Assembly (NCBI GenBank): GCA_016291085.1
Contig: JAEEVW010000004.1
Coordinates: forward strand, 1-64,000
From: Prevotella sp.
Lineage (GTDB): Bacteria; Bacteroidota; Bacteroidia; Bacteroidales; Bacteroidaceae
Direction: 5' to 3'
DNA length: 64,000 bases
The notes under the pieces were generated by a model. That model did no database searches. It saw only the letters and a list, made by a program, of their open reading frames with translations, and had not been told where the DNA came from. Below are positions 17,185 to 62,460 of the stretch, piece after piece. The translations under genes and the position numbers were made by a program. The first letter of the stretch is position 1; the number at the start of each line of letters is the position of its first letter.

Positions 17185-17212
17185 GATGTCTGATGTCAGA
17201 TGTCTGATGTCA
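17185..17212. repeat. Heptanucleotide array GATGTCT/GATGTCA x4
   Basis: GATGTCT GATGTCA GATGTCT GATGTCA directly after the ilvC stop. Confidence 0.9.
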
Positions 17213-17228
17213 GATTCTTGTGTTTTGA

Positions 17229-21212: not shown

Positions 21213-24200
21213 ATGATTATTACAGCACCAACAACTAAAACGCAGTATGGTCTCTACGCAGAGTGTATCGCTCATCAAGGAGAGGCTTGTTATAATATAC
21301 CTTATCTTTATACGTTGGATGGCAGTCTAGATGGGGAACGGCTATGCAAAGCCATCGAGGCCGCAGTCAAAGCCCACCCCACGCTGTTCACCCGTATCGA
21401 GCTTACCGAGCAGGGAGACCCTATACAAACGATTCATGTGGATGACGATTTTGTCGTCATCCCCGAACCAACCACTGACATCGAGGCAGAAAAGAAATCG
21501 TTTATCCAGCCCTTCGATTTGTATAAAGACAGGCTGTTCCGCATTCGTCTGCTGAAAGATGCAGAACATTACTATCTGCTACAGGACATTCATCACATCA
21601 TTTGTGATGGTGCATCAAGAAAGGTGCTGTTGGCGGATATCGAGAAAGCCTATCGAGGTGAGACTTTGCCATCAGAAACACTCACTCTGGCTGATGTCGC
21701 CAATGCCGAGGCAGAGGTGCGAGAGACTTCGAAGTTCGAGGAAGATAAGAAGTGGTATGCTGAGCACTTCGACTGCGGCGATACCTATTCTCCGCTGTTG
21801 CCTGACTTGGAAGGGGAGGAGCCTACAGAGGGGTTGCTGACTCGAACGATGAGCGTGGGTATCGATGCCGTCGATGCCTTCTGTAAGGAGCACGCCATCT
21901 TTAAGAGTACATTCTTCACAGCAGCGTATGGTTTCCTGCTGGCAAAATACAATAATGAACAGGAAGCATTGTTCAATACAATCCATAATGGTCGTGCAGA
22001 CAAGAGACTTGCAAACTCAGTAGCGATGCTCGTCAGAACACTGCCCGTCTATGCCAAGTTTGACAATGACACCAGTGTGCTCGATTTCCTGAAGGCCGGA
22101 CAGGAGCAGATGACAGGATGCCGTCAACATGAGGCTTACGCTTATAGCGACATCATCCAAGATTTAGGTTTGCAGACTGCTACATCGTTTGGCTGGCATG
22201 GACCATTGTTTGACAGCCTGCAGTTTGATGGCAAACCCATGACTGCTCTGCGTCTGAACAACAATACCAGTGGTGTGGCTTTGTATGTGAAAGCCTATAT
22301 TCGTGACGGACACTACTGCGTGGAGGCTGAATATAACGCCAGTGAGTATTCTGAGGCACTGATTAGTCAGTTCTTGGAGAGCTACGAGGCAGTAATAAAC
22401 GGTTTCCTCGCTCAGGAACAGTTGTGTGACATCAGCCTGATAACATCTGCTCAGTTGGAAGTACTCGATAGTTTTAATCAGACCGATGTTCCCTACGATG
22501 ATACCCAAACCATCGTCTCGCTGTTCCGTCGTCAGGCTAAGGCCACGCCCGATAAGACAGCAGTGGTCTTTAAGGACAAGCGGTTCACATACGCAGAGGT
22601 AGATGAAATCAGCGACCGCATTGCAGGCTATATCGCATCAAAGGGACTTGGTTTAGAGGATATCGTTGCCGTCTTGATTCCACGTTGTGAGTGGATGGCC
22701 ATCGCCTCGCTGGGTATCATCAAGGCGGGATGTGCCTTCCAACCACTCGATCCCAGCTATCCGAAGGAGCGACTGAACTTCATGATGCAGGATACTGGAA
22801 CCAAGTTGCTGATAGCCGATGAGGAACTGCGCCCTATCGTGGATGAATATCATGGTGATGTTATATTGACGAAAGATCTGTTACTGTGTGCTGCGACTGA
22901 GTCGCAGCCAACAGCTCCAAAGCCTGAGAGTCTCTTCACCCTCATCTACACCTCGGGCTCAACAGGTGTACCCAAGGGCGGCATGTCTGAACACAGAAAC
23001 TGGGTGGCTTTCTGCAACATGCATCAGCATTTCTACAACATAACAGCAGAAAGCAAGGTGGCCGCATACGCCAGCTATGGTTTCGATGCCTCTCCGATGG
23101 AGATCTTCTCTGCACTTACCATTGGTGCTGAGTTGCATATCGTACCAGAGGAATTGCGTCTCGATCTTATTGCTCTGAACGACTATTTCGAGCAGAATGG
23201 TATCACTCATAGCTTTATGACCACACAGGTGGCCTACCAGTTTGCAACCAGTATCGAGAACCACTCGCTGAAGGCATTGATGACTGGTGGAGAAAAGCTG
23301 TCGACACTGACACCACCAAAGACCTTCAGTCTGACGAATGGCTATGGCCCGTCGGAGACTATCTGCTACGTCACCAACTACTGGGTGAAGGAGCGAATGA
23401 AGAACATTCCTATCGGTCCTGCCATGCAGAACTGTAAACTGTACATCGTTGACCCACAAGGCCATCGCCTGCCTGTGGGAGCTGCTGGTGAACTTTGGGT
23501 GGCTGGCCCACAGGTTACCAGAGGTTATCTGAACCGCCCAGAGAAGACGGCAGAGGTGTATATCGATAATCCGTTCATATCTCTCACCTCTCACCCCTCA
23601 TCCCTCACCTCTAAATACGCCCGCTGCTATCGCACTGGCGACATCGTGCGCTATCTGCCCGACGGAAACATCTCGTTTGTAGGTCGTCGCGACGGACAGG
23701 TGAAGATTCGTGGTTTCCGCATCGAACTGAAGGAAGTGGAGGCAGTGATTCGTGAATTCCCAGGTATTAAGGATGCTACCGTTCAGGCCTTTGATGAGGA
23801 GAGTGGTACGGGTAAGTTTATTGCGGCCTATATCGTCAGCGATCAACAGATAGATATCGATGCACTGAACAACTTTATCCTCGACCAGAAGCCACCGTAT
23901 ATGGTGCCTGCCGTGACGATGCAAATCGACGCCATCCCGCTGAACCAGAACCAAAAGGTAAACAAGAAGGCGCTTCCAAAGCCAGAAAAGAAAGCTGCTG
24001 CTATAGAGGAGTCAAATGTTCCTATGAATGTGCTGGAGCAGGAACTGCATGAGATGATTGCCGCTATCGTTGGCAACACGGATTTCGGCATTACTACCGT
24101 TCTCGGCTATGCTGGTCTAACCTCTATCTCTGCTATCAAACTCGCCGTTCAGGTCAATAAGCGCTATGGCGTGACATTGGATTCAAAGTCGCTGGTAAAG

Positions 24201-27200
24201 ACTGGTACACTTCAGAGCATTGAGAACGAGATTCTCCATTCATTGTTATCAGAAACAGAAGATGCTGCATCGCTTTCAGTCCGAAGCCGTCGGACTCACA
24301 GTCCGAAGCCGTCGGACTCACAGTCCGAAGCCGTCGGACTACCAGCGTCTGTGCCCCTCTCTTACGCTCAGACAGGTGTTTACTTCGAGTGTCTGAAGAA
24401 TCCTGAGACGACGCTTTATAACATTCCCACAAAGATTGGATTCCCAAAGGATACAGATGCGACAGCCATTATCGATGCTATCAAGGTTCTTGTGAAGGCG
24501 CATCCGCAAATGACTGTACATTTCGGCAATGGCGAAGAGGGCATCGTTCAGACTGTCGATTTGGAACAGGCTGTGGAGATTCCTGTGAAGCAGATGAGCG
24601 AACAGGAGTTGGCATCATACAAACACGACTTCGTACGTCCCTTCGACCTCGCCACGGGTCCGCTCTATCGCTTTGAAATCATAACGACTGAGACGCAGAC
24701 CTATCTGATGATGGATGTGCATCACCTGATTTTTGATGGTGGTTCTGTGGATATCTTCCTTCAGCAGCTATGTAGTGTGCTCGATGGTTTTGCCATCGAG
24801 GACGAAGATCAGTCCTATGCCGCCTACGTTACCGCCGAACAGGCCGTAGAGAGTGGTGAGGAATACACTAAAGCTCAGGATTTCTTCAAAGAGCGTCTGG
24901 CTGTTGTCGAGGCTGCTACTGAGGTGCGTCCTGATTTGCCCAATCCTACTAAGGGCACCATCAGTAAAGCTATTTCAGCGCTCGATATCAAGACCATCGA
25001 CGTTTTCTGTCGCAACAACAACATCACACCTGCTCATCTGATTCTGTCAGCTATATACTATTCTCTGTCACGCTTTGCCAACAGCGAGCAGGTATGCATC
25101 ACAACAGTCTCCAACGGCCGTTCTAACCTACTGATTCGCAATACGGTGGGAATGTTTGTCAACACCTTGGCACTTGGTGCGACCATCGGTAAACAGACCA
25201 TCAAAGAATTCCTGCAGGAGGTGAGCGAAAACTTCGACGAGACGTTGCGCCACGAGAACTATCCGTTCGCACAGATTGCAGCCGACTACGGTTTGACAGC
25301 TGAGATTCAGTTTGTTTATCAGCTCGGCGTCATCAGCCAATACGTCTGCAACGGTACACCATTGGAGTTGGAGGGCTTGGAATTGAAAGTGCCTAAGTTC
25401 CCCATTACCTTCTTTATTCGCGATATCGATGGACAGGCAAGCGTCTGCGTAGAATACGATAACGGCAAGTATTCTGAGCGGCTGATGCAGAGTCTGGCAG
25501 ATGCCGTGAAGGTTACTGTAGAGCGAATGATTGCCAAGCCCGAAGCCGCCCTGACGAGCATCAGCATTGTCAGCGACGAGGAGGCTGAGCGCATTATTAA
25601 AATAGGTACGGGCAAGGAGATTGACGTTGACCTCTCCAAGACCTTTGCCAACCTGTTTACTGAACAGGCCAAGCGCACGCCCGATGCACCCGCTGTGGTG
25701 GATCGCGACAGTCAGTTGACCTACGCTGAAATGGATAACTACTCGAATGCATTGGCTCGCCAGTTGATTGAGTTTGGCGTACAACCTAACGACTTCGTCT
25801 GCGTCATGCTCGACCGTTTCAAGGAGTTCCCATTGGCAGTGCTGTCTATCCATAAGGCAGGTGCCGCCTATACCCCACTCGACTTTGAATATCCCAACGA
25901 GCGACTGAGCTATATGTTGGAGAATTCTGAGTCGAAGGTGCTTATCACTTCTCACGATGTGCTTGAGGCCAAGATGGCCGAGGGCGACTTCAGTACCGCT
26001 GCCGCTAAGACCTTCTTCATCGACGACTTTATGGCGGATGTGGTTGGCGGTTCTCCCGCTGACGCTATCGACCTGTCAAATCCCGATGGTCTGGCCTATA
26101 TGATCTACACCTCTGGTTCTACAGGCAAGCCCAAGGGCGCCATGCTCCATCAGGCTGGTCTTCGCAACTTCATTGCTGTGGTCATTGACATGGAGAAGTT
26201 GACGGCTGCCGACCGCATCAGCGGACACCGCTCGTTCTCGTTCGATGCCCATATCGAGGATATGTATCCCGTATTGACGCTGGGCGGCTCGTTCCACATC
26301 ATGCCTACAGAGATTCGTAAGGACTTGGCTCAGATCCGCCAGTTCCTGATAGACCATCAGATTACGGGTGGTGGCTATTCGACGGCGATGACCTGTCTGC
26401 TGCTCAATGCCTTCGATGACCTGCCCATCCGATTCACAACGGGTGGTGGCGAGAAGATGGATGGCGTCTACAGCGACCATATCGAGATTATTAATGTCTA
26501 TGGTCCGACGGAGTGTACTGACGATACCTCTTATTATAGCATTGCTCCAGGCCGACGTGTGGAGAACATTCCTATTGGCCAAAGTGTAGCCAACAATTGG
26601 AACTTCATCGTCGATACTGCTGGCAATCTTGTGCCACAAGGTGTGGCTGGTGAACTCTGCTTCGCAGGTATTCAGGTTGGACGCGGCTATTGGCGACTGC
26701 CTGAGCGAACGGCGAAGTCGTTTGTCGACTGCCCGTTTGTAAAGGAAGACCGCTGGGGACGTCCTGTCCGTATGTACCACACGGGCGACCTCTGCCGTTG
26801 GTCGGAGGACGGTCAGATTGAGTACATGGGACGTATCGATACGCAAGTGAAACTACGTGGTTTCCGTATCGAGTTAGGCGAGATTGAGAGCAAGGTCTTG
26901 AACTTGGAAGGTATCCGCCAGGCAGCTGCCGAGGTGCGCAAGGTACAGGGCAACGAACACCTCGTACTCTACTATACTGTGGTCGACGGATTTGCCATCG
27001 ACAGCGACGCCATCCTCGCAGCACTCAAGGCTTCGTCTTTGGCCGAATACATGGTACCTGACGTCTATATGAAGATGGAGGTGATGCCGATGACGCCTAA
27101 CGGTAAGATTAATCGCAAGGCACTGCCCGCTCCAGAACTGCAGCGCACCACAGAGTATGAGGCTCCTAAGGGCGAGATGGAAGAGCTCTTCTGCACTATC

Positions 27201-28670
27201 TTCTCTGACATCCTTAAGATTCAGGAGGTGGGTGCTACAGATAACTTCTTCGAGATTGGTGGTACCAGCATCAATGCCATCAAGGTCATCGTAGAGGCTA
27301 GCAAGCACGGTGTACAAATCGTCTTCAACGACCTGTTCACCCAGAAGACGCCACGAGCGTTGGCTGCGTTTGTTAATGGCAGCGAAGCTAGTCCTTCTAG
27401 TCTGACTAGTACGACTAGTGAGACTAGCCCTCAAATCGACTCCCCAGAAGCAGAGCACTTTGCACCGCTGAATGCCCTCCTCGAAGCCAACAGTCTCGAC
27501 AATTTCCGTGAGGGCAAGCGTCAGCCAATCGGTGATGTTCTGCTCACAGGCGCTACTGGTTATCTTGGCATTCATATCCTCAATGAGTTGCTGACAAATT
27601 ATCACGGCAAGATTCTTTGTCCTGTCCGTGCTAAAGGAAACGACGAGGCATTGAGTCGCATCAAAACGCTCTATTATTACTACTTCGGTCGCACAGAGGC
27701 CTTCAGCCATTTCGATGAGCGTGTCACCGCCTTCGCCTGTGAAATAACAGAACCTGACGCATTAGCCACCGTGCCCGATGGTTTCCCGTCGGGTCCGCTA
27801 ACAGTCGTCAACTGCGTAGCCAACGTGAAGCACTTCTCTGCCGGCAACGACATCGAGATGGTGAACATCGAGTCAGTTCGTCACCTCGTGGCCTTCTGTC
27901 TGCGCACGGGTTCGCGCCTCATTCATATCTCGACGAACAGCATTGCAGGCCTCAGTATTGACGGCAAGCCCGGTCCTGAGGCGAAACTGACAGAACAGCT
28001 GCTCTGGCTCGGGCAGGATATCAACGACAACAAATATGTCTATTCGAAGTTTAAGGCCGAAGAACTGGTGCTCGATGCTGTAGCCCATCACGGACTGAAT
28101 GCCAAGATTATGCGTGTAGGTAATCTGTCTGCCCGTCAGAAGGACGGTGAGTTCCAGATTAACTTCAACACCAACAACTTCCTCGCCCTGCTACGTGCCT
28201 ATGTGGTTATTGGCATGGTGCCTTACGATGCGCTTGACCGCCGCTTTGAGTTCTCGCCCATCGACGAGGTGGCCAGTGCTATTATGCAGCTTGCCCAGAC
28301 CCCGAAAGAATGCGTGGTGTTCCATCCTTCCAACACCCACCGTCAGTTCCTCTCCGACATCCTCACAGGTTTTGCCGAGGCTGGCATCACGTTGAAACGT
28401 GTGGAAAACGAAGAGTTCCAGGAAGCACTCGGACGTATGATGGATAATCCTGATCTTGTCACACTCCTGCGTCCGCTGATGGCTTATAAGATGAGCGGTT
28501 CTCGACAGGTTCGTTTCATAGAATCTACCAACGACTACACCACTCAGGTGCTCTACCGTCTTGGCTTCCAATGGCCACCTACTGCAGCCGACTATGTCCA
28601 TCGCTTCGTTGACACCATCGTAGGTTTCGGATTCTTTGACCAAAGTCAAAGCGTAACACGCAATCTTTAA
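21213..28670 (+). CDS. Two-module non-ribosomal peptide synthetase, C-A-T-C-A-T-R (terminal thioester reductase)
   Basis: C motifs HHIICDG and HHLIFDG; A-domain YTSGSTGVPKG / YTSGSTGKPKG, YGPSE / YGPTE, YRTGD / YHTGD; T-domain serines in GLTSISAI and GGTSINAI; terminal R domain LLTGATGYLGIHILNELL with YVYSK. Confidence 0.95.
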   Translation: MIITAPTTKTQYGLYAECIAHQGEACYNIPYLYTLDGSLDGERLCKAIEAAVKAHPTLFTRIELTEQGDPIQTIHVDDDFVVIPEPTTDIEAEKKSFIQPFDLYKDRLFRIRLLKDAEHYYLLQDIHHIICDGASRKVLLADIEKAYRGETLPSETLTLADVANAEAEVRETSKFEEDKKWYAEHFDCGDTYSPLLPDLEGEEPTEGLLTRTMSVGIDAVDAFCKEHAIFKSTFFTAAYGFLLAKYNNEQEALFNTIHNGRADKRLANSVAMLVRTLPVYAKFDNDTSVLDFLKAGQEQMTGCRQHEAYAYSDIIQDLGLQTATSFGWHGPLFDSLQFDGKPMTALRLNNNTSGVALYVKAYIRDGHYCVEAEYNASEYSEALISQFLESYEAVINGFLAQEQLCDISLITSAQLEVLDSFNQTDVPYDDTQTIVSLFRRQAKATPDKTAVVFKDKRFTYAEVDEISDRIAGYIASKGLGLEDIVAVLIPRCEWMAIASLGIIKAGCAFQPLDPSYPKERLNFMMQDTGTKLLIADEELRPIVDEYHGDVILTKDLLLCAATESQPTAPKPESLFTLIYTSGSTGVPKGGMSEHRNWVAFCNMHQHFYNITAESKVAAYASYGFDASPMEIFSALTIGAELHIVPEELRLDLIALNDYFEQNGITHSFMTTQVAYQFATSIENHSLKALMTGGEKLSTLTPPKTFSLTNGYGPSETICYVTNYWVKERMKNIPIGPAMQNCKLYIVDPQGHRLPVGAAGELWVAGPQVTRGYLNRPEKTAEVYIDNPFISLTSHPSSLTSKYARCYRTGDIVRYLPDGNISFVGRRDGQVKIRGFRIELKEVEAVIREFPGIKDATVQAFDEESGTGKFIAAYIVSDQQIDIDALNNFILDQKPPYMVPAVTMQIDAIPLNQNQKVNKKALPKPEKKAAAIEESNVPMNVLEQELHEMIAAIVGNTDFGITTVLGYAGLTSISAIKLAVQVNKRYGVTLDSKSLVKTGTLQSIENEILHSLLSETEDAASLSVRSRRTHSPKPSDSQSEAVGLPASVPLSYAQTGVYFECLKNPETTLYNIPTKIGFPKDTDATAIIDAIKVLVKAHPQMTVHFGNGEEGIVQTVDLEQAVEIPVKQMSEQELASYKHDFVRPFDLATGPLYRFEIITTETQTYLMMDVHHLIFDGGSVDIFLQQLCSVLDGFAIEDEDQSYAAYVTAEQAVESGEEYTKAQDFFKERLAVVEAATEVRPDLPNPTKGTISKAISALDIKTIDVFCRNNNITPAHLILSAIYYSLSRFANSEQVCITTVSNGRSNLLIRNTVGMFVNTLALGATIGKQTIKEFLQEVSENFDETLRHENYPFAQIAADYGLTAEIQFVYQLGVISQYVCNGTPLELEGLELKVPKFPITFFIRDIDGQASVCVEYDNGKYSERLMQSLADAVKVTVERMIAKPEAALTSISIVSDEEAERIIKIGTGKEIDVDLSKTFANLFTEQAKRTPDAPAVVDRDSQLTYAEMDNYSNALARQLIEFGVQPNDFVCVMLDRFKEFPLAVLSIHKAGAAYTPLDFEYPNERLSYMLENSESKVLITSHDVLEAKMAEGDFSTAAAKTFFIDDFMADVVGGSPADAIDLSNPDGLAYMIYTSGSTGKPKGAMLHQAGLRNFIAVVIDMEKLTAADRISGHRSFSFDAHIEDMYPVLTLGGSFHIMPTEIRKDLAQIRQFLIDHQITGGGYSTAMTCLLLNAFDDLPIRFTTGGGEKMDGVYSDHIEIINVYGPTECTDDTSYYSIAPGRRVENIPIGQSVANNWNFIVDTAGNLVPQGVAGELCFAGIQVGRGYWRLPERTAKSFVDCPFVKEDRWGRPVRMYHTGDLCRWSEDGQIEYMGRIDTQVKLRGFRIELGEIESKVLNLEGIRQAAAEVRKVQGNEHLVLYYTVVDGFAIDSDAILAALKASSLAEYMVPDVYMKMEVMPMTPNGKINRKALPAPELQRTTEYEAPKGEMEELFCTIFSDILKIQEVGATDNFFEIGGTSINAIKVIVEASKHGVQIVFNDLFTQKTPRALAAFVNGSEASPSSLTSTTSETSPQIDSPEAEHFAPLNALLEANSLDNFREGKRQPIGDVLLTGATGYLGIHILNELLTNYHGKILCPVRAKGNDEALSRIKTLYYYYFGRTEAFSHFDERVTAFACEITEPDALATVPDGFPSGPLTVVNCVANVKHFSAGNDIEMVNIESVRHLVAFCLRTGSRLIHISTNSIAGLSIDGKPGPEAKLTEQLLWLGQDINDNKYVYSKFKAEELVLDAVAHHGLNAKIMRVGNLSARQKDGEFQINFNTNNFLALLRAYVVIGMVPYDALDRRFEFSPIDEVASAIMQLAQTPKECVVFHPSNTHRQFLSDILTGFAEAGITLKRVENEEFQEALGRMMDNPDLVTLLRPLMAYKMSGSRQVRFIESTNDYTTQVLYRLGFQWPPTAADYVHRFVDTIVGFGFFDQSQSVTRNL
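23580..23614. repeat. Heptanucleotide array (core CTCA at 7-bp spacing) inside NRPS A1
   Basis: CTCA at 23583, 23590, 23597, 23604; encodes SLTSHPSSLTS before the YRTGD motif. Confidence 0.8.
24277..24341. repeat. Three tandem 22-bp hairpin units inside the NRPS T1-C2 linker
   Basis: CAGTCCGAAGCCGTCGGACTCA starting at 24277, 24299, 24321; each contains AGTCCGA-AGCCG-TCGGACT. Confidence 0.97.
27388..27432. repeat. CTAG-N5 array, 5 units, exact 9-bp period, in the NRPS T2-R linker
   Basis: CTAG at 27388, 27397, 27406, 27415, 27424. Confidence 0.97.
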
Positions 28671-44264: not shown

Positions 44265-44269
44265 AGAGA

Positions 44270-44297
44270 GTTGACAGTTGATAGTTGACAGTTGAGA
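44270..44297. repeat. Heptanucleotide array GTTGANA x4
   Basis: GTTGACA GTTGATA GTTGACA GTTGAGA between mreC and mreD. Confidence 0.92.
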
Positions 44298-53989: not shown

Positions 53990-54115
53990 GGGGGCGCGCA
54001 AGGTACAACATGCCTTTGCACAGGGAGCGAGAAGGCACCTCGCGACCTTGCAGGCACACGCAAAACACCTTGCGGGCACCCCCAAAACACCTTGCTGGCA
54101 TACGCAAAAAGTTTT
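53990..54115. repeat. GC-rich GCAAG/CTTGC island with a 22-bp period array
   Basis: GGCACACGCAAAACACCTTGCG (54053), GGCACCCCCAAAACACCTTGCT (54075), GGCATACGCAAAAAG (54097). Confidence 0.85.
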
Positions 54116-55081: not shown

Positions 55082-56566
55082 TTAAAATACTATTGCTTCG
55101 TAAACATACAACTCCGCATCCTTCCAGCCATCCCATCCGATGCCAGCCTTGTCCTGAGCACAATGGCCCACAAACTCCTCCTTCGTCCAGTTTACTTCAT
55201 CGGCAACCTGAGGCAGGAACGTGCCACTGCGATAACCTTTCTTGATATAGATGCCATGCTTGTGCAACTGGAATTCATCCAGATTCTGAATGCGACGCAT
55301 AGGTGTCAGCACAGAGATTTCGATGTCAATATCGTCCAGTTCGTCTCTGGTTACAGGCATGAACCGCGGATCTTCAAAGGCAGCGGCACGAGCCATTTCT
55401 GCAACTATTTCGTGCAATGGCACGTCTTCTCCAAAGTGACCAATGCAGCCACGCAACCGCCCCTGCTTGTGTAACGACACAAATGCGCCACATCTTGAAT
55501 TGAGAATTGAAAATTGAGAATTGAGAGTTGGCTGCGCAATTCGTTTGCCATCAAGACTGTCCTTGATACTTGTCAGTGCTATGGCCTTCAGCATCCGTTT
55601 TTCCTCGTCATTCAATGAGAATTCACTCTTTCTCAGTATCGCAAACGCATGATAGCCCACCACACGACTATGGTCGTGATTATCAATGTCACCGGAGTTC
55701 TGATACAGCAGATGTTTCACTTCGTAGCCGCCATCCTGCATCATCAGCATCAGCGTAGCAATGGCCAGCTCTCCGCAGGCACTCGTAGCCAGATTCTTCA
55801 CACCACTTCTGGCGTTTTTCTCTAGCTGAGCGATAAAGCGTTCCACGTCACCGCTCTCCACAGCCTTGCCTGTCCGAGCATCCACCTCGCAGGCATCCTC
55901 ATATTTCGGATAGTGCGAGAAGTCGCTGCTCACCACAAACAGATTCTCTTCCGTCATATACGGCTTCAGTACTTCTGCTATCTTTTGCAACTTCCTAAAA
56001 TCGTTTGTCGATATAATAATCGGTACAATCGGTGGTACTTCGCCAAATCTTCTCTGTAGGAACGGCAACTGAACCTCTAGACAATGCTCCCTATCATGAG
56101 CCTTGGGATTATAAAAGAACACAGAATCCGTTTTATCCGTGCCATCCGTGTTCGTTAATAATCTTGCCGTCTCGACATCTACCTTCACATTGCCCAATGG
56201 TGTACTGTAATAGTCGTATTCCGTATTCACCGAAGCCCCATCAAGCCACTCATGATGGCTTGGTCCCAACAGAAATATCCGCTTGTACTGCACATCGTCA
56301 GGTATCGACTGATACGCCGCTGCAGCCACATTGCCAGAAAAATAGTAGCCTGCATGAGGCACTATCAACGCTGCCACATGCTTGTATTTCTTATCCTTGG
56401 CATGTATCGTCAAGAAGCTATCCACCTCCTCGCTCAGTTCCTTGGCATCACCCGTATAGAAACGGTTCGCCTGAGTTGCAGGTCTTACTATCGGCTCCTT
56501 CGCCACGTTCCCGTTACATGTATTCATCATCATTACAGCTATGATTATTGTCAACAGTTTCATCAT
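55082..56566 (-). CDS. MEMO1-like (AmmeMemoRadiSam B) fused to AMMECR1 domain (AmmeMemoRadiSam A)
   Basis: ALIVPHAGYYFSGNVAAAAY, VVSSDFSHYPKYED; FVSLHKQGRLRGCIGHF. Confidence 0.92.
   Translation of the reverse strand: MMKLLTIIIAVMMMNTCNGNVAKEPIVRPATQANRFYTGDAKELSEEVDSFLTIHAKDKKYKHVAALIVPHAGYYFSGNVAAAAYQSIPDDVQYKRIFLLGPSHHEWLDGASVNTEYDYYSTPLGNVKVDVETARLLTNTDGTDKTDSVFFYNPKAHDREHCLEVQLPFLQRRFGEVPPIVPIIISTNDFRKLQKIAEVLKPYMTEENLFVVSSDFSHYPKYEDACEVDARTGKAVESGDVERFIAQLEKNARSGVKNLATSACGELAIATLMLMMQDGGYEVKHLLYQNSGDIDNHDHSRVVGYHAFAILRKSEFSLNDEEKRMLKAIALTSIKDSLDGKRIAQPTLNSQFSILNSRCGAFVSLHKQGRLRGCIGHFGEDVPLHEIVAEMARAAAFEDPRFMPVTRDELDDIDIEISVLTPMRRIQNLDEFQLHKHGIYIKKGYRSGTFLPQVADEVNWTKEEFVGHCAQDKAGIGWDGWKDAELYVYEAIVF
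55499..55530. repeat. Heptanucleotide array ATTGARA x4-5 in the MEMO-AMMECR1 linker
   Basis: ATTG at 55499, 55506, 55513, 55520, GTTG at 55527. Confidence 0.9.
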
Positions 56567-58945: not shown

Positions 58946-61861
58946 TCAATGTTTCGTCAGTTCTTGATAAAGTTTAAATAGCTCAGCCACGCACTGGCTT
59001 TCTGTCATTGTTTTGACGTTGAAGCCATAGGCCGCCATCACAGCGCGGTCGTTGTCCTGATGAGCCTTGCGGAGTTCTACGGGCATGGTTAACTCGTCGT
59101 AGAGATCGGCCAATGATGAATCAGGATAAAGGGTACGTGCATCGAGGATTGCCTGAGCTGTTTGTTCTATCTTTGCCTTTTGTTCTTCTGTTGGAGTTGG
59201 CCAAGGAAAATTGTTGTAGACAATATTTATACTATAGTCGTAGCGCATTTCCAAGCGACCAGCGACTGCACGCATCCACGCCATGTGAACATTTGACTGT
59301 AGAACGCCAAAATGGTAACGCGAGACATCGGGCATAATACGTAGTTTGTTGCTACAAATAACATTAGGAGTCATTAATCCCATTGGAATATACCGACGCT
59401 TCTCTGATGAAACTTCAGGTATGACGATATAATCTTCTGCAGGGAAGTTCTCAACATGGAACCTCGTGGGTCTATCTGCAATCTTTCGTGTTCCTTCACT
59501 CTTACTCGCCAATCTTGCATCTTTTACGGCTTCTACTCTTTTCATGCACTGAGGCATTCTGCGGAGTTCCGCAGGAGAACAATCACCAAGCCATAAACAA
59601 TAACGTGGTTTCTGATTGATAAATTCGTAGGCTCCGTAGAAAGGATGAAAGTATGCAGCAGAGGCAGGCTCCATACGTATAAACTCTTCCATTTCTTCTT
59701 TTTCGAAGAGATAATTGCCACCATCAATGGGCTTGTTACCTATTCCAATCATTGGAACATCACAAATAGGTTTTGGCCTGCTCCAAATGAAAATATCTGG
59801 TGCAGCAGTCAGATAGGCATTAATGTGCTTAACTTTTGTTACCTTGTCGTTGTCAAACAATAGACATTCTTTGCTTTCTTCGTCTTGCTTGCTAAAGCCC
59901 ACTATGACACAATGAACTTGTGCTTTTGTAGAAGACTCGCTGTCCCATCGGAAGGTACGATGGGCAAAGTCTATATGTAAGCCATGCTCTATGAGAGGCT
60001 GCCAAAGATTGGCCACTTGTTCACCCTGGCAGATGCTATTAGTAGAGACAAAAGCGACTTTGGGATTGCCTATTCTCATTGCATCGAAGGCTTTTTTATA
60101 CCAACAGCAGACATAGTCGAGATTGCCGACGTTTTTCCATTTCTCTCCAAAGATGTTAACGACATCCTGTTTTTGTTCGCTGTTCATTTGACGGGCGCCA
60201 ATGAACGGCGGATTGCCGATGATGTAGTCATAAAACATCAAATAGGCTGGAATCCTTGGCGCTTCTGAATAGGTTAGCAGTTCAACCTTAGGGCGAACTT
60301 CTTCTCTATTTATAACCTCTGGCACAAATCCTGCCTGAGGAACTGATGTTGGTAATGCTTTAGGGGGTAAAGGTTGAGGCAATCCATCCTTGCATTCAAT
60401 TATATTCCAATCCATCCTCAGCGCATTGCCCTCGCGGATGTTATGGTAGCTCTTCAGAGGCAGGAAATCGATGTCCTTATGAATAATTTTCTCCGTTTCT
60501 GCCAACATCTGAGCCTCGCTAATCCAAAGAGCAGTGGTGGCAACGGTAACGGCAAAATCGTTTATCTCGATGCCATAGAACTGATTGATACTGACCTTGA
60601 CTGCATCGACAAACTCACCCATCATCGTCTGGCCATGATACATCTCGCGAATAGCCTCGTTTTCCAAGCGGCGCAGACTCAAATAGGTCTCTGTCAGGAA
60701 GTTACCAGAGCCACAGGCAGGATCGAGGAAGGTCAGCGACGATAGCTTCATCTGGTACTCACCGAGTTTCCGCTTACGTTGTTTCTCTACCTTTTCTTCA
60801 AGGATGTCGTCCAATTCACGACGCAGGTCGTTCAGGAACAGCGGGTCGATGACCTTGTGAATGTTCTCAATCGAGGTATAGTGCATGCCTCCGCTGCGAC
60901 GGGTTTCAGGGTTCAGCGTCGATTCAAACACGGCACCAAAGATAGTGGGCGAAATCTCGCTCCAATCGAAATCGAGGCTGGCATTCTGTAGCAGCGTCTG
61001 CTTCAGCTCCTCAGTAAATTGGGGAATCTCGATTTCCTCTTCAAACAATCCACCATTGGTGTACGGGAAAGCCTTCAGGTCGTCCTTCAGATATTTGCTG
61101 CGCTTGTCTTCTGGCGTGTTCAAGACATCAAACAGGCGAATCAGCGCATTACGCAAATCCTCTGCATCATAGCGCACCAGATAGTCGTGGAACTGGTCGT
61201 GAGTGAACACGCCTGCATCCTCAGCATACAGACAGAACACGATGCGAACACAGAGAATGTTCAGCCAGCGCAGGGCCTCAGGCGAATTGTCGTCGTATTG
61301 CGCCAGCAGGGCCTCATAAATTCTTCCAACGATTTCACCTGCTTGCATCGAGACTTCCATCTCTTTCGAAAGGTGCTCGTTCTTAGCGTCAACCAGGAAC
61401 TGCAAGCGATAGTATTCCTTGCCCAGATTCTCCAACAGAATCTGCTCCGGTTCGCCATTGGGCTGCTCCATATCATAGACCAAGAACTCCTTGAAGTTGC
61501 AAGTAACAATCCAGCGAGGATGCTCTGACACGGGAAGACTGACCACATAGCGGCGTGCCTGCTGGAAAGGCGTCAACAGCGAGCCGTCACTTTGCTTGAC
61601 AGGTGCTCGTAAGTCCTTGTCTATCGACTTCTGCTCAATCAGCACGCGGGTAGAACGAATACGGCCATCAACAAAGTTGGAAGCGTCTACTTTTTGATGA
61701 TCTTCAAAAGTAATGAAACCATCCGAGGGAGTCTCGATGCCAAAGACGTTTGTCAACAGGTCTATCCAGAAAGGCTGTGATTCGCCTCTCTCGTAACCTC
61801 TGCCTTTCCATCGCTCAGCGAACTCCGCAGCAGCCGCAGCTATTTGTTTCTCTGTCTTCAT
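58946..61861 (-). CDS. Type IIG/MmeI-like restriction-modification enzyme (N6-adenine methyltransferase)
   Basis: LDPACGSGNFLTETY (motif I), YIIGNPPFIG (motif IV), N-terminal RVLIEQKSIDKDL consistent with a PD-(D/E)xK nuclease. Confidence 0.88.
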   Translation of the reverse strand: MKTEKQIAAAAAEFAERWKGRGYERGESQPFWIDLLTNVFGIETPSDGFITFEDHQKVDASNFVDGRIRSTRVLIEQKSIDKDLRAPVKQSDGSLLTPFQQARRYVVSLPVSEHPRWIVTCNFKEFLVYDMEQPNGEPEQILLENLGKEYYRLQFLVDAKNEHLSKEMEVSMQAGEIVGRIYEALLAQYDDNSPEALRWLNILCVRIVFCLYAEDAGVFTHDQFHDYLVRYDAEDLRNALIRLFDVLNTPEDKRSKYLKDDLKAFPYTNGGLFEEEIEIPQFTEELKQTLLQNASLDFDWSEISPTIFGAVFESTLNPETRRSGGMHYTSIENIHKVIDPLFLNDLRRELDDILEEKVEKQRKRKLGEYQMKLSSLTFLDPACGSGNFLTETYLSLRRLENEAIREMYHGQTMMGEFVDAVKVSINQFYGIEINDFAVTVATTALWISEAQMLAETEKIIHKDIDFLPLKSYHNIREGNALRMDWNIIECKDGLPQPLPPKALPTSVPQAGFVPEVINREEVRPKVELLTYSEAPRIPAYLMFYDYIIGNPPFIGARQMNSEQKQDVVNIFGEKWKNVGNLDYVCCWYKKAFDAMRIGNPKVAFVSTNSICQGEQVANLWQPLIEHGLHIDFAHRTFRWDSESSTKAQVHCVIVGFSKQDEESKECLLFDNDKVTKVKHINAYLTAAPDIFIWSRPKPICDVPMIGIGNKPIDGGNYLFEKEEMEEFIRMEPASAAYFHPFYGAYEFINQKPRYCLWLGDCSPAELRRMPQCMKRVEAVKDARLASKSEGTRKIADRPTRFHVENFPAEDYIVIPEVSSEKRRYIPMGLMTPNVICSNKLRIMPDVSRYHFGVLQSNVHMAWMRAVAGRLEMRYDYSINIVYNNFPWPTPTEEQKAKIEQTAQAILDARTLYPDSSLADLYDELTMPVELRKAHQDNDRAVMAAYGFNVKTMTESQCVAELFKLYQELTKH

Positions 61862-61957
61862 TGGTAGCAATATTTTTCTGCAAAGATAGTCATTATTTTC
61901 GATAACTCCAAAACTTTCCCACAAAAAATCTTCCATCTTTCTAGGGAAGTACAAGTT

Positions 61958-62200
61958 TTCAGGAAAGATGTCAACAATTCCAGGAAAGTGTCAACTTGTT
62001 CAGAAAAACGACTGTCAACCACATCAGGAAAAAGAGCAAAAACTGTCAACCGAAATCAGGAAAAGACAGACTGTACAATTCGGGACTTTCGGACTTTTTT
62101 GCGTGTCAAACTGAATCCCCAAAATTTGCCCTCAATGAGCGAGAAGCCGTTTCTCTCATAGCGAGAGGCCGTTTCTCTGCCAGAGAGAAGCCGTGTTGCT
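61958..62200. repeat. Intergenic repeats: CAGGAAA...TGTCAAC units and three 22-bp GAAGCCGT units
   Basis: CAGGAAA/TGTCAAC recurring 61960-62070; GAGAAGCCGT at 62141, GAGAGGCCGT at 62163, GAGAAGCCGT at 62185 (exact 22-bp spacing). Confidence 0.88.
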
Positions 62201-62221
62201 AAAAACGGGAGGAAATCTATT

Positions 62222-62460
62222 TCTACGGAGCCAGGGAACCAAAGGAGAACTGGTCGTCGCTGTGCTCCTCAAAATCTAACAAAATCTGATTCAAAATTAA
62301 AGAAAAATAGAATCTACGGAGCCGGGGAGCCAAAGGAGGCAAAATGTCCCGCAGATTGCATTGCAACGCCACACTCTCAAAGAGAGAACGCCACACTTCG
62401 ATCTTTAGTCGAAGAAAGCGCAGATTGCAACGCCACACTCTGACCAAGGTCAGAGAAATG
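62222..62460. repeat. TCTACGGAGCCRGGGARCCAAAGGAG direct repeats and three AACGCCACAC-hairpin units
   Basis: TCTACGGAGCC at 62222 and 62313; AACGCCACAC at 62365, 62387, 62429, each followed by a different self-complementary stem. Confidence 0.88.

Follow-up and report, generated by a model that had tools for sequence, protein, structure and literature searches.

Rickettsia palindromic elements (RPEs) are short palindromes that lie both between genes and in frame within genes, as longer single elements. STRR-type heptameric short tandem repeats have a period of 7. REP, BIME and REPIN sequences, which are associated with RAYT transposases, are short dispersed palindromes that occur several per site (PMC3733652). 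In Porphyromonas gingivalis, BrickBuilt is a minisatellite MITE with a 23-nt tandem unit; it is always intergenic and has a leader, a tail and terminal inverted repeats (PMC4596501).

The window analyzed here is a 64,000-nucleotide (nt) stretch of a Prevotella sp. contig, and it carries tandem arrays of a 22-bp palindromic unit, for which BrickBuilt is the closest known system. Both systems belong to the Bacteroidales and share a similar unit length, many dispersed arrays, a variable unit number, predicted long stem-loops and the absence of an Rfam match (PMC4596501; in the window, no Rfam family was matched at the gathering score). They differ in that the unit is 22 bp instead of 23 nt, the arrays hold 2 to 5 units, and six arrays lie in frame within ORFs, whereas BrickBuilt is strictly intergenic. 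REP, BIME and REPIN sequences are comparable as short dispersed palindromes with several per site, but the strict 22-bp tandem phase sets our arrays apart. RAYT-linked REPs are also disfavored because the RAYT gene (Y1_Tnp, PF01797) had 0 matches in the 96.6% complete genome that holds the window (G000; 3.63 Mb, 78 contigs), while 5 of 14 control genomes were matched. Neither a GTAG nor a CGTC tetranucleotide is present at the ends of the unit consensus AGCGAGAAGCCGTnTCnCT. In a CRISPR array, which is accompanied by cas genes, unique spacers of about the length of the repeat separate the repeats; the 3-nt spacers of the family do not fit this by length. The arrays resemble RPEs in being both intergenic and in frame within genes and differ, by the above description alone, in consisting of 22-bp tandem units and not of longer single elements. 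In related species, 22-bp arrays and STRR-type heptamers occupy corresponding linkers, and heptamers are abundant in the same genome, but the family period is 22 instead of 7. We found no earlier description of a genus-wide formation of exact 22-bp tandem repeats, of which this family is one case; a literature search gave no account of such repeats in Prevotella, although absence there is no proof.

Tandem units in the window and in related genomes

Direct reading of the intergenic array at 62138-62200 gave three 22-bp units with the spacers CAT and GCC. The features needed below are as follows.

62138..62156, + strand: unit 1 of the intergenic array, AGCGAGA-AGCCG-TTTCTCT, spacer CAT (62138-62159, AGCGAGAAGCCGTTTCTCT-CAT; direct reading, TRF, unit collection)
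62160..62178, + strand: unit 2 of the intergenic array, AGCGAGA-GGCCG-TTTCTCT, spacer GCC (62160-62181, AGCGAGAGGCCGTTTCTCT-GCC; direct reading, unit collection)
62182..62200, + strand: unit 3 of the intergenic array, AGAGAGA-AGCCG-TGTTGCT (AGAGAGAAGCCGTGTTGCT; direct reading, unit collection)
62090..62212, + strand: dispersed noncoding element of ~120 bp around the intergenic array, TTTTTTGCGTGTCAAACTGAATCCCCAAAATTTGCCCTCAATG - array - AAAAACGGG (alignment, blast)
24278..24340, + strand: NRPS array, three identical TCCG-class units AGTCCGAAGCCGTCGGACT, spacer CAC (TRF, sequence reading)
54045..54109, + strand: third 22-bp tandem array of the window, of unrelated sequence, ACCTTGCAGGCACACGCAAAAC x3.0, TTGC...GCAA (TRF)

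TRF reported period 22 for both family arrays, with 2.6 copies and a score of 79 for the intergenic one and 2.9 copies, 100% matches and a score of 128 for the one in the NRPS gene. This agrees with the first-pass annotation, which had described three 22-bp units between genes and the same family inside the NRPS. Its spacing was exact; its unit starts (62141, 62163 and 62185) were 2 bp too low, as the cores GAAGCCGT, GAGGCCGT and GAAGCCGT begin at 62143, 62165 and 62187. The window contains GAAGCCGT 12 times compared with 1.96 expected, a count reached in 0 of 100 shuffles. The right arm TGTTGCT of unit 3 is a recurrent array end; elsewhere, it is followed by AAA or ATT at several loci.

The intergenic array is flanked on one side by an ORF for an MmeI-like restriction-modification protein (58946-61954) and on the other by an ORF encoding a helix-turn-helix domain. 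Irregular TGTCAAC and CAGGAAA repeats occur upstream of the array, at 61950-62080. Beside it, at 62230-62460, CTACGGAGCCRGGGARCCAAAGGAG is found twice together with GCAACGCCACACTCT and hairpin-like inserts; related stretches are present near other arrays. Further copies of the ~120-bp element were detected on contigs C19 (4 units) and C45 (3 units). In the alignment of the three copies, the sequence outside the 4, 3 and 3 units was near-identical. The copy number thus changes by whole units between copies (3 versus 4), as is characteristic of a palindromic minisatellite.

The NRPS array is located in ORF 21213-28670, in the linker preceding a condensation domain, and its in-frame translation is SVRSRRTHSPKPSDSQSEAVGL. 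In NRPS orthologues, other repeats occupy the corresponding linker. Heptamer tandem arrays of the window are found at 17185-17215 (GATGTCA), 23581-23612 (CTCTCAC, within the NRPS ORF), 44269-44295 (AGTTGAC) and 55497-55530 (GAATTGA), and period 7 is common in G000 and in part of the genus.

From G000 and its relatives we collected 36 chains with 107 units, 64 of them distinct; one chain (L056 at 7251), an apparent chance match, was left out of the later register and unit-number tests. The unit consists of a 7-bp stem arm, a near-constant 5-nt core (RGCCG), a complementary 7-bp stem arm and a free 3-nt spacer, in total 22 bp. GAGA-type and TCCG-type units occur together, in a single 22-bp phase, in the arrays at L026 and L031. 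The intergenic and NRPS arrays of the window are therefore variants of one family, in line with the original proposal. The predicted enrichment of the core in tandem 22-mers was also borne out by a genome search: RGCCGT-N16-RGCCGT occurred 43 times in G000 compared with 2 for a reversed-pattern control. The respective counts (control) were 17 (7) in G074, 11 (2) in G007 and 5 (7) in G040. Thus, G040 as a whole shows no core excess, although one strict array is present there.

Of 100 genus genomes, 4 (among them G000) contained a stricter array pattern, and of 78 genomes across the order, G000 alone did. The family is dispersed in several related species, with arrays in G074, G007 and G040 as well as in G000, and its arrays were matched in rumen or gut Prevotellaceae/Bacteroidaceae MAGs. 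Searches of viral contigs, phages and plasmids gave no match, and an origin from these sources was rejected. A solitary ancestral hairpin, TTTAGCAACARGCCGTGTTGCTAAA, did not occur at ≤3 mismatches.

In-frame arrays and the genus-wide 22-bp period

Six ORFs carry an array in frame: those for the NRPS, a CobQ/CobB-like protein (L018), RsmF (L140), a GH106/GH2 protein (L166) and a DegT aminotransferase (L009), and the unassigned ORF at L158. For five of the six, the product is supported by Pfam. Each array has exactly three units, which span 66 bp and keep the frame; at L158, the pattern listing gave two units, and the missing one, the first of the array (core AGCCA), was recognized by eye. Outside genes, 31% of the arrays have three units, which by our arithmetic gives 0.31^6, or ~0.001, for six such arrays. 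The NRPS and RsmF arrays lie in interdomain linkers, and the DegT aminotransferase array lies inside a single matched domain.

The RsmF linker was surveyed in related genomes, where pattern-based extraction from 70 loci yielded 30 linkers. A significant tandem lag was present in 16 of these 30 linkers, mainly at 7 and its multiples or at 22. At this orthologous position, four species (G074, G083, G035 and G007) have four different 22-bp arrays, and other relatives have heptamer arrays. The linker (loci L232-L301) comprises ~110 residues in several more distant genus members compared with 30-65 in many nearer relatives, and it is often filled with repeats.

The period itself was surveyed with one TRF setting in 1.49 Mb from G000 and other genus genomes, the hand-chosen stretches being samples. 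There were 47 arrays at period 22 compared with 4, 2, 3 and 4 at periods 19, 20, 23 and 24; the 30 arrays at period 21 may in part be multiples of 7. G016 and G024, both single-contig genomes, showed the peak as well. It was absent from the 326 kb sampled in other families of the order, where 2 arrays had period 22. The 47 arrays fall into 39 sequence families, of which 9 have a stem at p≤0.05 in a stem-score permutation test (2 expected). Two measures of palindrome enrichment were tried, and the result depends on the second; the first, the fold energy of doubled units, gave no period-22 signal. A simple ORF rule placed 2 of the 47 arrays in ORFs and 5 near a stretch end. The remaining arrays are in convergent gaps in 13 cases and in divergent gaps in 4, compared with 88 and 125 in the background, a bias that hints at a role or at tolerance at gene 3' ends.

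Unrelated arrays thus recur at this period, even at one orthologous linker. Tentatively, this could reflect a genus-specific process that builds 22-bp tandem repeats whatever the sequence, with a preference for palindromes. To our knowledge, current accounts of bacterial minisatellites do not predict so sharp a period of 22 bp in unrelated sequences. If the period reflects a mechanism, this can be sought directly by strain comparison.

Pairing between the stem arms

When folded as RNA, the + strands of both window arrays were more stable than dinucleotide shuffles (z -2.6 for the intergenic and -5.2 for the NRPS array); the first-pass annotation had noted their self-complementary flanks. The NRPS array folded into one long rod. 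Complementarity between adjacent arms allows an array to form either separate hairpins or such a rod. The DNA fold of the intergenic array was unremarkable (z -0.99).

The stems first quoted for the two arrays (GAGAA-GCCGT-TTCTC versus TCCGA-AGCCG-TCGGA) are not in a common register. In the common 7-bp register, 81.9% of the cells of distinct units were paired, compared with 72.9% after shuffling and 31-49% when the register was slid. The covariation score was 0.281 versus 0.142 and was reached by 0 of 500 shuffles. When all units were used, pairing of columns 4-8 with columns 14-18, a shifted 5-bp register, was not above shuffles. The excess of pairing is due to the division of the units into two stem classes, GAGA and TCCG. 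Upon removal of the TCCG class it disappeared (5.35 pairs observed versus 5.46 permuted, p 0.90). Within the GAGA class, pairing did not exceed that of permuted arms, whether the arms were paired across the core (p 0.90, 0.999) or across the spacer (p 0.23, 0.48) or the outer arms were considered (p 0.054). Stepwise compensatory covariation, tried in several registers, was absent within this class, and its commonest unit, AGCGAGA/TTTCTCT, contains a C-T mismatch. What separates the two classes is a contiguous block of positions in each arm, and stepwise intermediates were not seen. The earlier claim that pairing-preserving changes point to selection thus receives partial support: overall pairing is above chance, but covariation within the GAGA class is lacking.

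The hairpin is a real property of the family, but the pairing data do not demonstrate selection on the stem. Copying of the palindrome would account for the paired arms equally well. Since stepwise intermediates are missing, we propose that one arm of the palindrome may serve as the template for copying or repair of the other; both arms would then change together, and arm complementarity would be kept mainly in this way. More generally, paired palindrome arms can mimic selection on structure where copying alone may suffice.

Selection for an RNA hairpin, with arrays at gene ends serving as terminators or protectors of transcript 3' ends and the stem held by compensatory mutation, seems unlikely. 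It is consistent with the fold z-scores and with the overall covariation score above all shuffles, but the GAGA class is devoid of covariation. Similarly, the preference of the genus-wide 22-bp arrays for convergent over divergent gaps fits a function at gene ends, but the GCCGT family itself is found about equally in convergent (6) and divergent (7) gaps. The six in-gene arrays, the variable unit number and orientation, and the lack of an Rfam match at the gathering score in the window also argue against it.

Dispersal of the arrays

Taken together, the arrays are probably dispersed palindromic minisatellites that change by whole units and belong to a genus-wide tendency to exact 22-bp tandem repetition. 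Slippage or unequal recombination would add and remove units, and short arrays, or mosaic noncoding elements bearing them, may be copied to new sites. The arrays would then persist where harm is small, i.e., between genes and in tolerant protein segments. As mover of the arrays, neither an enzyme nor a transposition event was found, and no clean empty site with a target duplication was found because linkers and intergenic flanks are unalignable between species; for these reasons, we infer the route of dispersal. In a genus that is abundant in gut and rumen, this class of repeats remodels the linkers of proteins and the ends of genes.

The flanks of the arrays bear on a further explanation, namely MITE- or REP-like miniature transposons that are mobilized by a transposase in trans and contain the tandem units internally or at their ends. 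Intergenic copies of the family are embedded in mosaic repeats that share stretches of up to 295-388 bp (blast). Transposition would agree with the presence of such dispersed elements around many intergenic arrays and with the 23-nt tandem core of BrickBuilt, the P. gingivalis MITE (PMC4596501). However, two element groups aligned from a subset of copies had ragged, mosaic edges without clear inverted ends, and neither terminal inverted repeats nor target duplications were apparent at the edges inspected. Moreover, in-gene TCCG-class arrays move without flanks, their mutual similarity being confined to a few bases around the array (blast), and G000 lacks a Y1_Tnp gene. We therefore regard miniature transposons as improbable. 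A chromosomal DNA-binding protein that recognizes the arrays as rows of sites spaced by two helical turns would suit the sharp period in unrelated sequences and the near-constant core with a free spacer, but is very improbable, as one site-specific protein would not recognize all 39 sequence families, arrays occur in genes, and the strict pattern is limited to 4 of 100 genus genomes.

Another family with 22-bp spacing, consisting of AGCCGTAATCTCGT and a variable remainder, was observed at L142 and L149 and on contigs C62 and C66 of G000; it is present in G000, G007 and G074.
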